From assembly GCF_016881005.1 (NCBI RefSeq), contig NZ_JACOPV010000004.1:310001-374000 (forward strand): 64,000 nt of DNA, read 5' to 3'. The translations under genes and the position numbers were made by a program. The stretch comes from Pseudomonas arcuscaelestis (GTDB lineage Bacteria; Pseudomonadota; Gammaproteobacteria; Pseudomonadales; Pseudomonadaceae). Below, piece after piece: positions 99 through 8,503 of the stretch. The notes beneath the pieces were generated by a model, which ran no database searches, was not told where the DNA came from, and saw only the letters and a program-made list of their open reading frames with translations. Every line of letters begins with the position of its first letter. Positions within the stretch are counted from its first letter, which is position 1.

Positions 99-1724
99 TC
101 AGACGCTGAAGCGTGCCACTAGCCCGTTCAGGTCAACTGCCAAACGTGACAGCTCGGCGCTTGCCGCGCTGGTCTGGTGGGCGCCGGTGGCCGACTGCAC
201 CGACAGGTCGTTGATGTTGACCAGGTTGCGGTCCACTTCGCGAGCCACCTGGGCCTGTTCTTCGGCAGCGCTGGCGATTACCAGATTACGCTCGTTGATC
301 TCGGCTACCGCACCGGTAATGGTGTCCAGCGCCAGGCCTGCGCCGCGGGCAATATTGAGCGTCGACTCGGCGCGTTCGGTGCTGTTGCGCATGGAGTTGA
401 CTGCTTGTTCGGTGCCGCCCTGGATACTGCCGATCATGCGCTCGATTTCGCTGGTTGATTGCTGGGTGCGATGCGCCAGGGCGCGGACTTCATCAGCTAC
501 CACGGCAAATCCACGACCGGCTTCACCGGCCCGTGCCGCTTCGATGGCGGCATTGAGTGCCAGCAGGTTGGTCTGGTCTGCCAGGCCGCGAATGACGTCG
601 AGAACCTTGCCGATATCGCGTGATTCTTCCGCCAGGTTGCCGATCAGATCGGCAGTGCCCTGTACATCGACACTCATGCGCTCAATGGCGCTGACAGTCT
701 CCAGCACCAGGTCGCGGCCATCACCTGCCGAGCGCGTGGCTTCCTTGGACGCTTCCGAGGTGCTGACGGCATTGCGCGCCACTTCTTCGACGGCGCTGGT
801 CATTTCGGTGACTGCGGTGGCGGCCTGTTCGATTTCGTTGTTTTGCTGTTGCAGGCCTCGGGCGCTTTCGTCCGTAACGCTGTTCAATTCTTCGGCAGCC
901 GAAGCCAGTTGAGTGGCAGAGCCGGCGATCAACTGCAGTGTGTCGCGCAGCTTGTCTTGCATCTTGGCCATGGCCCGCAGCAGGCGTGCGGCTTCATCAT
1001 GACCTTCGATGTGGATGTTGCGTGTGAGATCGCCTTCGGCAATGCGTTCGGCAGCCTGCAGGGCATCATCGATAGGTTTGACGATACTGCGGGTCAGCAG
1101 CAAGGCGCAGCCCAGGGTCAGCACCGTGGCGAACAGCAGCAGGCTGACCACCAGGGTGACGGCGTTGGAATACTGCTGCGCAGCCGTCTGGTTGATCGTA
1201 CGGGTTTGCTCGGTGTTGATGCTGACCAATTGATCCATGACGCTGTTGATCTGCTCGGAACTGTTGAGCATGTCGCGGTTGATCAGGTTGCGCAGGGTTT
1301 CCAGGTCATTGTTCTGCGAGGCCAGTTGCATACGGTTCTCCAGCTCGCGGTATTGGCCGAGCAACTGCACATACTGGTTATAGGCGGCACGCTCCTGGGC
1401 TCCATAGATCAGCGGTTCGTAGACCTTGCGGGCTTCGTCGATCTGCTGGTTGCGCTGGGCGATCAGGTTGCGTGTGTTCTGCAGCGTGTCGGCTTCGCGA
1501 TTGAGTAGCAGTCGATACGACAGGGTACGCAGGCGCAGGGTCAACTGGGTGAGCTGATCAACGTTGGTAATGCTCGGTACGGTGGAATTCTCGATAATTT
1601 CGCCAGCCTGGCGAATCTTGCTCATTTGATTCAGCGCGAACAGACCCAACCCCAGCATCAGGGCGCCAATAAGGGCAAACCCCAGCAGCGCGCGCGGGGC
1701 AATATTCATGTTACGAAGGGACAT
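99..1724 (-). CDS. Methyl-accepting chemotaxis protein, 4-helix-bundle type
   Basis: A 541-residue inner-membrane chemoreceptor that would signal to CheA/CheW. The N-terminal membrane helix spans roughly residues 10-31. A helical periplasmic domain of about 155 residues follows, then a second membrane helix (about 186-210), a HAMP domain to about 263, and a cytoplasmic coiled coil whose conserved hairpin tip ([18 protein letters not shown]) is at about 384-402. The sensor length and helical character fit the small 4-helix-bundle class; the ligand cannot be read from sequence. I chose the ATG at 1724 (MSLRNMN) over one 33 bases upstream because GGAAG lies six bases before it and the shorter form begins just before the membrane helix. 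A flagellar sigma-28-like promoter lies about 65 bases upstream. Confidence 0.93.
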
Positions 1725-1786
1725 AGTGGTCTTCCGGAGGGGGAAAATAGCGCGCACTTCATGCGACAGATTGAGGATTGCCTTGC

Positions 1787-1998: not shown

Positions 1999-2229
1999 AT
2001 GTTGGAAACTTCCCTCAGTCAATTGGAACAACTCGTCAGCGACCTGGTACAGAAGAATCAGGAACTGAGCGAGCGCAACGAGCAGATCAACGCGCAACTG
2101 GCCCAGGCCAAGGATGAAAACGAGAGCCTGCAACTGGCGCTGATGGAGCAGGAAGAAAAGCAGGGCTCTACCGCTGCACGCATTCAGGCTCTGGTTGAAC
2201 GCGCAAGCGCTGGTGCCGTCAACGCATGA
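1999..2229 (+). CDS. Small coiled-coil protein of the TIGR02449 (ZapB-like) type
   Basis: A 76-residue, highly charged protein predicted to be almost entirely coiled coil, rich in Gln, Glu, Leu and Asn (for example LVSDLVQKNQELSERNEQI). It resembles the roughly 70-residue TIGR02449 proteins usually encoded immediately upstream of zapA in Pseudomonas. It starts at an ATG preceded by GAGAAGG at good spacing. Its stop codon overlaps the start of the zapA-like gene by four bases, so the two are translationally coupled. A role as a ZapA partner in Z-ring assembly is inference. The canonical zapA locus of pseudomonads lies beside 6S RNA and ygfA, neither of which is here, so this looks like a second copy of the pair. 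Confidence 0.75.
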   Translation: MLETSLSQLEQLVSDLVQKNQELSERNEQINAQLAQAKDENESLQLALMEQEEKQGSTAARIQALVERASAGAVNA

Positions 2230-2528
2230 GAACTTCAGCACAGCCGATCAATGTCGTGTCGATTCTCGGCAGCGATTATTCGATCAAGGCTCCCGAAGGC
2301 CAGGAGCAGGCCCTGTCGCAGGCCGTGCAGATGCTCAACGCCTCGCTGGCCGAAACCAAGCGTAAATATCCGACGCTGATCGGTGACAAGCTGCTGGTTC
2401 TTGCAGCCCTCAACCTCTGCTCGCAGCAGATCGATCTGCAAGCGCAGCACCAGCAAGCCCTCGACCGTTACCAAGAGCAAGTCAGCGCCACGGTCGATGC
2501 CATTGCCCGGACCATCGGCGACAGCTGA
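2226..2528 (+). CDS. ZapA-like cell division protein (probable paralog)
   Basis: A 100-residue protein with the ZapA architecture. An N-terminal beta-rich domain ([19 protein letters not shown], about residues 10-28) is followed by a segment containing [13 protein letters not shown] (about 55-67), which matches the conserved ZapA ALNL/ALNI region, and a C-terminal coiled coil. ZapA cross-links FtsZ protofilaments. The length matches the family (about 100-110). It overlaps the upstream coiled-coil gene by four bases. The expected 6S RNA does not follow; there is a hairpin and then a chemoreceptor. That argues for a paralog rather than the main zapA, although I cannot see the rest of the genome. 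Confidence 0.75.
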
Positions 2529-2683: not shown

Positions 2684-4621
2684 ATGCAGTTTTGGCGGCG
2701 CAGCATTCAGTGGCAATTGATCGCAAGCATGGGCGCAGCCCTGTTGGTGAGCATTCTTATCGTGGTCGGGATCTACTCGGTGGCCGTCAATCGCCTGACC
2801 GAACGTTACCTGGTCGACACCGCCTTGCCGGCAAGCATTGAGGCAATTCGTAACGACATTGAGCGAATGTTGAGCCGTCCGCTGACCGCTGCGGCCGACA
2901 TTGCCAACAACACCCTGCTGCGCGACTGGCTGGCCGCAGGTGAAGACAGTGCCCAGGCGCCGCAATTTATTGAGTACCTCGAAGCCTTGCGCCAGAAAAA
3001 CCAAGCGTTCACGGCGTTGTTTGCAGGCACCGAAACCAATCACTACTACAACGAAAAAGGCCTGGACCGGACCCTGAGCCGCAGCAACCCGGCGGACAAA
3101 TGGTTTTACGGTTTTATCGACAGCGGCAACCCGCGCCTGCTCAACATCGACACCGATGGCAGCACCGGTGAGTTGGCGCTTTTTATCGACTATCGGGTGG
3201 AGAAGGCCGGTAAGTTGGTGGGCATCGCCGGGCTTGGCCTGCGCATGACCGAGCTGTCGGAGCTGATCCACAACTTCAGCTTCGGTGAGCGTGGACGGGT
3301 GTTTCTGGTACGCAGTGATGGCCTGATTCAAGTTCACCCGCAGCAGGAGTTGAGCGGCAAGAAAAAACTCTCCGAGCAAATCGGCGAGTCCGCAGCCCAG
3401 GCTGTGCTAAGCAAGGGTGATGGTTTGCACAGTAGCCGTTTCGAGCGCGATGGCGAGGGTTATCTGGCATTGAGCCTGCCACTTCGCGACTTGAACTGGA
3501 CTCTGGTTGCCGAAGTTCCAGAGGCACAGATCTACGCTCCTGTGCGCGAGACAGTCTGGCTGACCAGCCTGATTGGCGGCGCCGTGGCGCTGGTATCGCT
3601 GTTGCTGGTGGTGCTGTTGGCCCGTGGCATTGTCCGGCCGATTCGTCGGGTAACTGGCGCCCTGTTGGCGATTGGTAATGGGGGCGGTGATCTAAGTCAG
3701 CGCCTGGATGAATCGCGCGCCGATGAACTGGGCGATCTGGCCCGTGGGTTCAATCGCTTTATTGATAGCCAGCGGACCTTGATTGGCGAAGTGCTGCGCA
3801 CCAGCGAGCGTTTGCACAGTGCTGTTGCACAAGTGACCCAGGTGGTGGACAACACTGCCGAACGTTCCGGACGTCAGCAGGAAATGACCGAGATGGTCGC
3901 CACGGCGGTGCATGAAATGGGCCTTACCGTACAGGACATTGCCCAGAATGCTGGCAATGCCGCGCAGGCATCGGAAACAGCCCGCACAGAAGCGCTCGAG
4001 GCGCGTGAAGTGGTCCGGCGCTCGATTGCCCATATCGAGGGCATGTCGGGTGAGATTGGCCAGGCCGCCCACGCCGTGGGTGAACTGGCCAATGAAGTGG
4101 CATCAATTGACGAAGTATTGGCAGTGATTCGCAGTATTTCCGAGCAAACCAACCTGCTGGCGCTCAATGCGGCCATTGAAGCTGCACGGGCAGGTGAGAT
4201 GGGCCGCGGTTTTGCCGTGGTTGCCGACGAGGTGCGAACATTGGCCCGACGTACCCAGGTGTCTACCGATGAAGTGCAGCAGATGATCCTGCGTCTGAAG
4301 CATGGCGCCGGTAGCGCTGTGGCGTCGATGCAGGCTGGGCAGGTGGCAACGGGCACCGGGGTGCAATCCAGCCAGCAGACCGGCGCTTCACTGAGCACCA
4401 TTACCGATCAGGTCGAACACATCAGCGATATGAACCATCAAGTGGCGACGGCGACTGAAGAGCAGTCGGCGGTGACTGAAGAGATCAATCGTACTGTTCA
4501 GGGAATATCCGATCTGGCGCGGCAGACAGCGTCGGAAGTGCAGGGGTGTCGAGAGGAATGTCAGGCACTGCGCGGCTTGGCGGATGACCTGGCGCGGCAG
4601 ATGGGTGGCTTCAGGTTGTAG
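2684..4621 (+). CDS. mcpH: Methyl-accepting chemotaxis protein, dCACHE type, McpH-like
   Basis: A 645-residue chemoreceptor. The first membrane helix is at about residues 10-32, a large periplasmic domain at about 35-285, a second helix at about 292-314, HAMP to about 370, then the signalling coiled coil with its hairpin tip ([18 protein letters not shown]) at about 488-505. The periplasmic domain has dCACHE features, including a WFYGFIDSG segment and [15 protein letters not shown] near its second module. In P. putida the receptor between a zapA-like pair and ltaE is McpH, which recognises purines; the name is assigned here by that gene order and is not proven. The ATG at 2684 is used because AGGGGAAGA precedes it and the protein then starts just before the membrane helix; an in-frame start at 2561 has no such support. 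Confidence 0.88.
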
Positions 4622-4686: not shown

Positions 4687-5727
4687 TCAGGCATTCATCA
4701 CTTCGCGAATGTCTGCCGCCAATTCCCGAACCCGCGCCTCTTCGGTGTCCCAAGAGCACATGAATCGTGCACCACCGCTGCCGATGAAGGTGTAGAAGCG
4801 CCAGCCCTTGTTGCGCAAGGCTTCCAGAGCAGGTTCGGACATCTGTAGGAACACCCCGTTGGCTTCGACCGGGAACATCAACTCCACACCTGGCACGTCA
4901 CTTACCAATTGGCTGAGCAACTGTGCGCAGCGGTTGGCGTGGGCGCCGTATTTGAGCCAGGCGTCGCCTTCGAGCAAGCCTACCCAAGGGGCAGACAGAA
5001 AACGCATTTTCGAGGCCAATTGACCGGCTTGCTTGCAGCGGTAGTCGAAGTCTTCAGCCAGATCGCGATTGAAGAACAGGATCGCTTCACCCACGGCCAT
5101 ACCGTTTTTGGTGCCACCAAAGCACAGCACATCGACGCCGGCTTTCCAGGTCAGCTCGGCTGGCGAGCAGCCAAGGTAGGCGCAGGCGTTGCTGAAACGG
5201 GCGCCGTCCATGTGCAGGTTCAGGCCAAGCTCTTTGCAGGTGGCACTGATTGCCTTGAGTTCGTCCGGGCGGTAGACGCTGCCCACCTCGGTGGCTTGGG
5301 TAATGGTGACCACGCGTGGTTTGGGGTAGTGAATGTCCTGGCGTTTCAGCGCGACTTCACGAATCGATTCGGGGGTCAGCTTGCCAGCCACGCTGCGGGC
5401 AGTCAGCAGTTTTGAACCGTTGGAGAAGAACTCCGGAGCGCCGCATTCGTCGGTTTCGACGTGGGCGGTCTCGGAGCAGATTACGCTGTGATAGCTCTGG
5501 CACAGGGACGACAGCGCCAGTGAGTTGGCCGCGGTGCCGTTGAAGGCGAAGAACACCTCACAATCGGTTTCGAACAGTTTGCGAAAGTACTCGGCGGCAC
5601 GGGCAGTCCATTGGTCGTCGCCGTAGGAGCGGTCGTGACCCTGGTTGGCTTTTTCCATCGCGGCCCAGGCTTCCGGGCAGATACCTGAGTAGTTGTCGCT
5701 GGCGAATTGCTGGCTTTGATCTGTCAT
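4687..5727 (-). CDS. ltaE: Low-specificity L-threonine aldolase
   Basis: A 346-residue cytosolic PLP enzyme of fold type I that cleaves L-threonine and L-allo-threonine to glycine and acetaldehyde. The cofactor lysine is Lys207 in the motif FGGTKNGM, and Asp174 in HMDGARF is placed to contact the pyridine nitrogen. Length matches the aldolase family. It starts at an ATG preceded by AGGACA at a suitable distance. It is divergent from glyA, with 251 bases between the two starts. The pairing makes sense, since both enzymes produce or consume glycine and feed the one-carbon pool. Confidence 0.93.
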   Translation of the reverse strand: MTDQSQQFASDNYSGICPEAWAAMEKANQGHDRSYGDDQWTARAAEYFRKLFETDCEVFFAFNGTAANSLALSSLCQSYHSVICSETAHVETDECGAPEFFSNGSKLLTARSVAGKLTPESIREVALKRQDIHYPKPRVVTITQATEVGSVYRPDELKAISATCKELGLNLHMDGARFSNACAYLGCSPAELTWKAGVDVLCFGGTKNGMAVGEAILFFNRDLAEDFDYRCKQAGQLASKMRFLSAPWVGLLEGDAWLKYGAHANRCAQLLSQLVSDVPGVELMFPVEANGVFLQMSEPALEALRNKGWRFYTFIGSGGARFMCSWDTEEARVRELAADIREVMNA

Positions 5728-5795
5728 GACACTGTCCTGTGAACGACGCAGATCAGCACTCTAAACCAAGAAATGTAGCGTCGCCTATACAAAGC

Positions 5796-5850
5796 ATCGT
5801 GGGGAAGCCTGCTCCTGGCCAGCCCTGTTGGCGCAGGCTTGTGCCGCGAT
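5796..5850. repeat. REP-like imperfect inverted repeat in the ltaE-glyA gap
   Basis: The left arm 5796-5812 and right arm 5833-5850 are near complements (ATCG..GG..AAGCCTGC against GCAGGCTTGTGCCGCGAT) around a roughly 20-base centre. It sits in the 251-base divergent region between ltaE and glyA. Apart from it I see no further confident promoter or operator there. Confidence 0.5.
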
Positions 5851-5978
5851 GAGGCTGCATGTCGTAAACGCACCACTGCAAGGCGTGCGTAGGCATCTAG
5901 GCTGTCTGCGTCGGTCATACCATCGCTGAAAAGGGCGATTGCCCCATAAGAACCGATGCCGCTGCCGGGAGAGACGCA

Positions 5979-7232
5979 ATGTTCAGCAAGCAAGACCAGA
6001 TCCAGGGTTACGATGATGCACTGCTGGCGGCGATCAATGCCGAAGAGCAACGCCAGGAAGATCACATTGAACTGATCGCCTCGGAGAACTACACCAGCAA
6101 GCGCGTCATGCAGGCCCAAGGCAGCGGCCTGACTAACAAATACGCTGAAGGCTATCCGGGCAAGCGCTACTACGGCGGTTGCGAGCATGTGGATAAAGTC
6201 GAGCAACTGGCTATCGATCGCGCCAAGCAATTGTTCGGCGCCGACTATGCAAACGTCCAGCCGCATTCAGGCTCTTCGGCCAACAGCGCCGTGTACCTGG
6301 CTCTGTTGCAAGCAGGTGACACCATCCTCGGCATGAGCCTGGCGCATGGTGGTCATTTGACCCACGGCGCCAAGGTGTCGTCATCGGGCAAGTTGTACAA
6401 CGCCGTGCAGTACGGCATCGATACCGGCACAGGGTTGATCGACTACGACGAAGTCGAACGTCTGGCGGTGGAAAATAAGCCGAAGATGATCGTTGCCGGT
6501 TTCTCAGCCTACTCGAAAACCCTCGACTTCCCACGTTTTCGTCAGATCGCTGACAAGGTCGGGGCCTATCTTTTTGTCGACATGGCGCACGTTGCCGGCC
6601 TGGTTGCTGCGGGCCTCTATCCAAACCCGCTGCCGTATGCCGACGTGGTCACTACCACGACGCACAAAACCCTGCGTGGCCCGCGCGGGGGCTTGATCCT
6701 CGCGCGCAGCAACGAAGAAATCGAGAAGAAGCTCAATGCAGCCGTATTCCCTGGCGCTCAGGGTGGCCCGCTGATGCATGTGATCGCGGCCAAGGCGGTG
6801 TGCTTCAAGGAAGCTCTGGAGCCTGGCTTCAAGACCTATCAGCAGCAGGTCATCGACAATGCCCAGGCCATGGCCAAGGTGTTCATCGATCGCGGTTTCG
6901 ATGTGGTTTCCGGCGGCACCGACAACCATTTGTTCCTGGTCAGCCTGATTCGTCAGGGCCTGACCGGCAAGGATGCCGACGCTGCCCTGGGCCGCGCGCA
7001 CATCACCGTCAACAAGAACGCCGTCCCGAATGACCCGCAGTCACCGTTCGTCACTTCTGGCCTGCGGATCGGCACCCCGGCCGTCACCAGCCGTGGCTTC
7101 AAGGTTGCCCAGTGTGAAGAGCTGGCCGGCTGGATCTGCGACATTCTCGACAACCTCGGTGATGCCGATGTCGAGGCCGATGTGGCGAAGAACGTGTCGG
7201 CACTCTGTGCAGATTTCCCGGTTTATCGCTGA
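5979..7232 (+). CDS. glyA: Serine hydroxymethyltransferase
   Basis: A 417-residue cytosolic PLP enzyme interconverting serine plus tetrahydrofolate with glycine plus 5,10-methylene-THF. The Schiff-base lysine is Lys230 in [14 protein letters not shown], with Asp201 in VDMAHVAGL for the pyridine nitrogen. Full family length, with the N-terminal IELIASENY signature at about 31-39. The ATG at 5979 is preceded by GGGAGA. soxB starts 20 bases after its stop, so it heads the sarcosine oxidase operon. There it can turn sarcosine-derived glycine and methylene-THF into serine. Pseudomonads usually carry a second glyA elsewhere, so this is probably the sarcosine-linked copy. Confidence 0.97.
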
Positions 7233-7252
7233 GTGCTCCAGGAGTGAAAACT

Positions 7253-8503
7253 ATGCAACGTTACTCGGGCTTCGGCCTCTTCAAACACTCGCTCAGCCAT
7301 CACGAAAACTGGCAGCGCATGTGGCGCACACCGACCCCGAAAAAGGTCTACGACGTGGTCATCGTCGGCGGTGGCGGGCATGGCCTGGCCACTGCCTACT
7401 ACCTGGCCAAGCAACACGGCATCACCAACGTTGCAGTGGTCGAGAAGGGCTGGTTGGGCGGTGGCAACACTGCACGCAACACCACCATCGTGCGCTCCAA
7501 CTACCTGTGGGACGAGTCGGCGCATCTCTATGAGCACGCGATGAAGCTTTGGGAAGGCTTGTCTCAGGACATCAACTACAACGTGATGTTCTCCCAGCGC
7601 GGGGTCTACAACCTGTGCCACACCCTGCAGGACATGCGTGATTCGGAACGTCGGGTCAGTGCCAACCGCCTCAACGGTGTCGATGGCGAGCTGCTCAATG
7701 CCCAGCAGGTCGCCGATGAGATTCCATACCTGGACTGCTCGAAAAACACCCGCTACCCCATCATCGGCGCCACTGTGCAGCGGCGCGGTGGTGTCGCCCG
7801 TCATGATGCCGTGGCCTGGGGCTTTGCCCGCGCCGCCGACGCCTTGGGCGTTGACCTGATCCAGCAGACCGAAGTGATCGGTTTTCGCAAGGAAAACGGC
7901 GTTGTCATCGGGGTCGAGACCAATAAGGGCTTCATTGGTGCCAAGCGTGTCGGCGTGGTCACCGCAGGTAACTCCGGGCACATGGCCAAGCTGGCCGGTT
8001 TCCGTCTGCCGATCGAGTCGCATCCGCTGCAGGCACTGGTGTCCGAGCCGCTCAAGCCGATCATCGACAGTGTGATCATGTCCAACGCCGTGCATGGCTA
8101 CATCAGCCAGTCCGACAAGGGCGATCTGGTCATCGGTGCTGGTATCGATGGGTGGGTCGGCTACGGTCAGCGCGGTTCCTACCCGGTAATCGAACACACC
8201 TTGCAAGCCATCGTCGAAATGTTCCCGATTCTTTCGCGGGTGCGCATGAACCGCCAGTGGGGCGGCATCGTCGACACTACGCCGGACGCTTGCCCGATCA
8301 TCTCCAAGACCCCAGTCAAGAACATGTTTTTCAACTGTGGCTGGGGCACCGGTGGCTTCAAGGCCACGCCGGGTTCAGGCAACGTCTTTGCCGCCAGTCT
8401 GGCCAAGGGCGAAATGCACCCGCTGGCCAAACCTTTTTCCATCGACCGTTTCCACAACGGCGCACTGATCGACGAACACGGCGCTGCCGCTGTCGCCCAC
8501 TAA
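7253..8503 (+). CDS. soxB: Sarcosine oxidase beta subunit
   Basis: A 416-residue flavoprotein subunit of heterotetrameric sarcosine oxidase, which oxidatively demethylates sarcosine to glycine, passing the one-carbon unit to tetrahydrofolate and reducing oxygen to hydrogen peroxide. A dinucleotide-binding fold begins with [16 protein letters not shown] at about 35-50. His184 in [11 protein letters not shown] is the likely covalent attachment site for FMN by comparison with known SoxB proteins (inference). The ATG at 7253 follows CAGGAG; a GTG nine bases earlier overlaps that ribosome site and is less likely. soxD follows after 14 bases. Confidence 0.96.

Follow-up and report, generated by a model that had tools for sequence, protein, structure and literature searches.

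A coiled-coil gene accompanies the gene for a second ZapA-like protein, by sequence an ortholog of ZapAL, in Pseudomonas

In Escherichia coli, the short coiled-coil protein ZapB works with ZapA, whose fold consists of two strands, a helix, a further helix and a long C-terminal helix. Models of E. coli ZapA place its residue N60 in contact with FtsZ F2, and the N60Y substitution abolishes the interaction (PMC12754632). In Caulobacter crescentus, zauP and zapA form an operon, and ZauP has been called the functional homolog of ZapB (PMC7188993, PMC7858052); that system is also linked to ZapT and the terminus. The closest described system is that of Pseudomonas aeruginosa, where PA5407, a protein of 96 aa that is 20% identical to the ZapA of this species (PA5227), was named ZapAL and is known from many Pseudomonas species (PMC8371321, 2021). 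According to that report, ZapAL is recovered with FtsZ in sedimentation assays at a ratio of about 1:1, and its bridging of FtsZ filaments produces stable double filaments (PMC8371321). It lowers the GTPase activity of FtsZ by ~26% at 10 uM, and a ZapAL-GFP fusion is seen at midcell (PMC8371321). The same source describes zapA-deficient cells that become about twice as long when ZapAL is overexpressed, and treats mixing of ZapA with ZapAL as probable from kinetics (PMC8371321). ZapAL is nevertheless puzzling, because its deletion from PAO1, singly or together with zapA, gave no obvious defect under normal laboratory conditions (PMC8371321).

Here we analyze a pair of genes in a 64,000-nucleotide stretch of the Pseudomonas arcuscaelestis genome, hereafter referred to as the window. 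The pair and its surroundings comprise the following features (window coordinates):

99-1757, minus strand: 4HB-type chemoreceptor, divergent from the pair (MCPsignal, 4HB_MCP_1 and HAMP)
1758-1998, strand not applicable: intergenic stretch from the divergent chemoreceptor to the coil gene, delimited by the ORF bounds
1999-2229, plus strand: 76-aa coiled-coil gene from the ORF list, a candidate ZapB/ZauP-type partner
2226-2229, plus strand: ATGA, the 4-base overlap of the coil stop and the zapAL start
2226-2528, plus strand: 100-aa ZapA-like gene, by sequence an ortholog of PA5407/ZapAL (PF05164, match to PA7, tree)
~2684-4621, plus strand: dCache chemoreceptor, downstream of the pair (dCache_1, HAMP and MCPsignal)

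The initial annotation described a coil gene and a zapA-like gene that overlap by four bases between two chemoreceptors, and this is borne out by the ORFs and by Pfam. The zapAL product scores 61.7 bits against PF05164 (E 8.5e-17; cut-off 23.8), placing it in the ZapA family, and the two genes are adjacent on one strand in the arrangement known for ZauP and ZapA. The promoters of both the divergent receptor and the coil gene presumably lie within 1758-1998, and a scan of this stretch for sigma-70-type sequences found no promoter. On the 3' side of zapAL, a strong hairpin with a 12-pair stem and without a clear T run occupies 2561-2589; among 33 loci, the same hairpin is found only in the nearest relative (L009). 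Other hairpins are present on this side in many of the 33 loci, and in nine of them no hairpin of at least six pairs was found 3' of zapAL. The downstream receptor has an ATG at 2684, and its ORF extends back to a TTG at 2561.

The standard Pseudomonas zapA pair was said to lie beside 6S RNA and ygfA, and the window pair was held to be a diverged copy that lacks these neighbors. Indeed, ygfA is absent after the window pair, and an Rfam scan of the 64 kb window returned no families at gathering score. The proposed search for a second zapA near 6S RNA was carried out on the whole genome (6.28 Mb in 88 contigs), and one other ZapA above the cut-off was identified, on contig C1:

C1:148288-148539, strand not given: canonical zapA (ZapA profile, above cut-off)
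C1:148606-148783, strand not given: 6S RNA, next to canonical zapA

The gene order at this locus is a 69-aa coil, zapA, 6S RNA and a ygfA-type gene, as expected of the standard pair, and the coil matches TIGR02449 with 99.6 bits (cut-off 55.4). A coil, zapA and a ygfA-type gene were likewise found together in 16/16 canonical loci of relatives, ten from carriers and six from non-carriers of the second pair. As the genome holds a canonical zapA at C1, the possibility that the window gene is its only copy is ruled out. The two ZapA proteins of this genome are identical at 24 of 98 positions (z 9), and the mean identity of the window protein to 17 canonical ZapA sequences is 22.4%; with the 6S-linked locus lying separately, the window pair is a diverged extra copy, as had been proposed.

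A primer from PMC8371321 was used as a search pattern and matched nine records, one of which is P. aeruginosa PA7. Against 398 genomes of the genus, the PA5407 primer gave one match, with one mismatch, at a place where the listed ORFs do not include zapAL. The PA7 gene encodes 96 aa and begins with MSRDGVQ, as predicted by the primer, and its product is identical to window ZapAL at 36 of 96 positions (z 19). Upstream of it, and overlapping it by four bases, is a coil gene whose product matches the window coil at 42 of 76 positions (z 20), such that the coil is better conserved between the window and PA7 than ZapAL is. Taken together, the predicted start of the PA7 gene, the identity of the two ZapAL proteins and the similar, overlapping coil identify the window pair as the ZapAL locus, and judged by these alignments the window ZapA-like protein is an ortholog of PA5407/ZapAL. 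By gene order, the window coil would then be the counterpart of PA5406. A role at the Z-ring, as suggested in the initial annotation, gains support because the P. aeruginosa ortholog binds FtsZ and is located at midcell (PMC8371321), and, with only 36 of 96 residues shared, we infer the function of the window protein from that of its ortholog. The biochemistry published for ZapAL was done without the coil, and we found no mention of the coil gene in the available part of the report (PMC8371321).

The relationship between ZapAL and canonical ZapA was examined in a tree of 59 selected rows and 105 columns (26 of 38 ZapAL, 15 canonical, 17 from other families and E. coli). ZapAL rows, including the PA7 protein, fall on one side of a single branch with moderate support (78/77), and canonical ZapA falls apart from them; without the divergent row L134, the ZapAL branch (25 rows) has a support of 88/82. 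The canonical Pseudomonas sequences group as a clade of their own (99/97), positioned among the ZapA proteins of other families. Because of long branches, the small number of columns (105) and an untrimmed N-terminal extension in L148, the tree picks neither duplication nor transfer as the origin of ZapAL. L134 itself, from genus g25, is a very divergent ZapAL (branch 5.67) in which the contact Asn is replaced by Arg, and the adjoining coil is recognizable and better kept.

At the position of E. coli N60, Asn is present in the window protein, in 35 of 38 ZapAL rows and in 17/17 canonical rows, and the other named contacts (R16, N18, R44 and Q52) mostly differ from E. coli in both Pseudomonas groups, ZapAL and canonical alike. 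ZapAL has a signature of its own, with Lys or Arg at the N18 position in 38/38 rows and Pro at the R46 position in 37/38. In the ZapAL proteins of L103 and L104, Lys replaces the contact Asn, a substitution that may alter FtsZ binding in this subgroup. A structure model of window ZapAL, built from two input sequences and poor in quality (pLDDT 60), has the order E E H H H; its nine best matches in the PDB are all ZapA entries, with a TM of ~0.4 and none at E<=0.001.

To survey the distribution of ZapAL, up to 16 candidates per genome were scored with a ZapAL profile; of 298 genomes in the genus, 274 had a match at E<=0.001. Nine of these matches were weak (2.2e-9 to 9.5e-8), and the remainder, at 3e-21 or better, were counted as ZapAL by score. 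A second search, in which every candidate was scored, covered the nine genomes with weak matches and 20 of the 24 unmatched ones (29 in all), with three carriers as controls. In the 29 genomes, the ZapAL profile gave weak matches in 20 and none in nine; the notion that these weak matches are divergent ZapAL was rejected, as 20/20 are canonical ZapA by sequence. Removing the nine weak matches from the 274 leaves 265 carriers of ZapAL among the 298 genomes. The coil profile matched in none of the 29 genomes that lack ZapAL and in all three controls, such that the presence or absence of coil and ZapAL agrees in 32/32 re-searched genomes. Moreover, the 4-base overlap is kept in 30/30 same-genus loci (the window included) and is also found in PA7, L102-L104 and L131-L134. 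Among 341 genomes of the order, the coil profile matched in ten at E<=1e-5, all from the same family and representing three of 131 genera. Because the coil is seen in Pseudomonadaceae only (10/341), a horizontal or mobile origin of the pair appears unlikely.

The initial annotation labeled the window coil as TIGR02449-like, and this label was rejected: the window coil has no match to TIGR02449 at E<=1, while the canonical coil scores 99.6 bits. Searching this genome with a canonical-coil profile at E<=10 returned the C1 gene only and did not match the window coil. Aligned with one another, the two coils are identical at 20 of 65 positions (z 2.3), which is not clearly above shuffled sequences, and comparison of the two coil profiles by hhalign gave a probability of 61%. 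In Pfam, the window coil instead matches ZapB (PF06005) best, colinearly over residues 6-68 and with a score of 23.6 bits, below the cut-off of 31.5. The ZapB model matches 8/8 window-type coils and 11/12 canonical-type coils, with best E values of 4.4e-5 for the window type versus 2.6e-6 for the canonical type. Applied to 21 whole genomes (13 carriers and eight non-carriers), it gave no match above the cut-off in any; the window-type coil was the top match in ten of the 13 carriers and second in three, and the best matches in the eight non-carriers (E 0.003-0.05) were equal to those of some carriers. Since the scores lie below the cut-off, canonical coils match about as often and non-carriers have matches of similar strength to those of some carriers, 'ZapB-like' is a lead only for a coil that may belong to this family. 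Outside the family, a coil-sized ORF likewise precedes zapA in 15 of the 17 genomes examined, and the remaining two have none there. The window coil is presumably the partner of ZapAL and would bind it.

We also determined how far the chemoreceptors accompany the pair. Of the 29 relatives that have the pair, 25 also have the divergent receptor; it is 69-99% identical over at least 539 residues in 24 of them and over 470 in one, and the match lies 197-368 bases from the coil. In these relatives, the 4HB receptor and the division module share one intergenic stretch. The downstream receptor was found in 15 of the 29, and G002 is without the divergent one. In G003, G024, G008 and PA7, the pair occurs with no chemoreceptor found when flanks of ~8 kb on each side (5.7 and 1.8 kb in PA7) were searched with both whole receptors; the adjacency is thus real synteny that the pair does not need, and only some lineages have the pair in a chemoreceptor setting. 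After the downstream receptor, at 4687-8503, the window contains genes that from their ORFs we take to be of the ltaE, glyA and soxB types. In 11 of the 29 relatives, including G003 and G024, the pair is flanked by a gbcA-type gene on one side and an ltaE-type gene on the other; for the remaining 18, at most one of these genes was detected within the 10-17 kb examined. We take the ltaE/glyA/soxB/gbcA surroundings to be a region of glycine betaine and sarcosine catabolism. Upstream of the PA7 pair are what, by ORF reading, are presumably DUF2975-like, XRE and lipoprotein-like genes.

In our judgment, the pair is probably a ZapAL module of the Pseudomonadaceae, consisting of a faster-evolving second ZapA and its own coil partner and existing beside the canonical operon. 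Homology, orthology, linkage, co-occurrence and purifying selection were observed here, and the behavior toward FtsZ and at midcell would carry over from P. aeruginosa by analogy. Under this explanation, the coil gene and zapAL would be expressed as a single unit of two overlapping genes, and the coil would act with ZapAL much as ZapB and ZauP act with the ZapA proteins of E. coli and Caulobacter, respectively. The module could tune the bundling of the Z-ring or the ring's link to other structures, perhaps under slow growth, and the chemoreceptors would be neighbors rather than substrates.

Other explanations differ mainly in what they make of the coil and of the receptors. ZapAL might act alone or with canonical ZapA, the coil being a hitch-hiker or acting on canonical ZapA; this we regard as unlikely, though less so than the other alternatives. 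The published activities of ZapAL were obtained without the coil, and the kinetics point to ZapA-ZapAL mixing (PMC8371321). A hitch-hiker, however, would sit poorly with an overlap kept at all 30 loci, with agreement of presence and absence in all 32 genomes, with a coil more conserved than ZapAL between the window and PA7 (42/76 against 36/96) and with the ORF of similar size to the coil that precedes zapA in 15 of the 17 genomes from other families. That the pair positions or clusters the flanking chemoreceptors, a role put forward in the initial annotation, would fit with the conservation of the divergent receptor in 25 of 29 relatives at 197-368 bases from the coil. Yet PA7, G003, G024 and G008 have the pair without a receptor in the flanks, G002 lacks the divergent one, the downstream one accompanies the pair in just 15 of 29, and P. 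aeruginosa ZapAL is an FtsZ-binding protein found at midcell (PMC8371321), leaving that proposal unsupported and, to us, very improbable.

We give still less credence, close to none, to the idea that the second pair is a decaying, functionless duplicate. In nine of ten genomes, conservation is lower for ZapAL than for canonical ZapA, and deletion of zapAL caused no obvious defect under normal laboratory conditions (PMC8371321), as decay would predict. However, pN/pS values between the window and ten relatives range from 0.15 to 0.54 for zapAL and from 0 to 0.48 for the coil, falling below 0.55 in 20/20 comparisons; the reading frames are open in the loci examined, and ZapAL is kept in 265 of 298 genomes. 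From these values, the pair looks to be under selection and not decayed.

The pair is therefore real and mostly known, its ZapA half having already been described as ZapAL. What is perhaps new is that ZapAL is strictly coupled with a coil of its own, giving two parallel ZapA-coil modules per genome; searches of one open literature collection did not find this coupling described, and Sun et al. 2025 as well as Woldemeskel et al. 2017 (ZauP) may bear on it. The strictly linked coil gene is a candidate for the missing partner of ZapAL. As a more tentative and rather doubtful proposal, most Pseudomonas could possess two complete parallel Z-ring modules, one pairing ZapA with the TIGR02449 coil, the other pairing ZapAL with a coil of its own that is perhaps ZapB-like and confined to Pseudomonadaceae. 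The second would be a dedicated adapter for starving or slowly growing cells; it would hold FtsZ in stable double filaments and connect the ring to a partner beyond the reach of the first module.

Compared with known systems, the window pair shares with the canonical ZapA/TIGR02449 coil/6S/ygfA module the order of coil then zapA, the 4-base overlap and PF05164, and differs from it in the coil family, the locus, the ZapA sequence (24/98) and the absence of 6S RNA and ygfA at its side. The coil resembles E. coli ZapB in being a short coiled coil with ZapB as its best Pfam match, but it scores below the curated cut-off, and E. coli zapB has no zapA within the surrounding 4 kb. The ZauP-ZapA operon is similar in gene arrangement, with a coiled-coil gene beside zapA. 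P. aeruginosa ZapAL is likewise a second ZapA-like protein of 96-100 aa with ~20-25% identity to canonical ZapA, and in PA7 it has the same overlapping coil gene upstream; the window protein differs from it in sequence (36/96 to PA7) and in being flanked by chemoreceptors.
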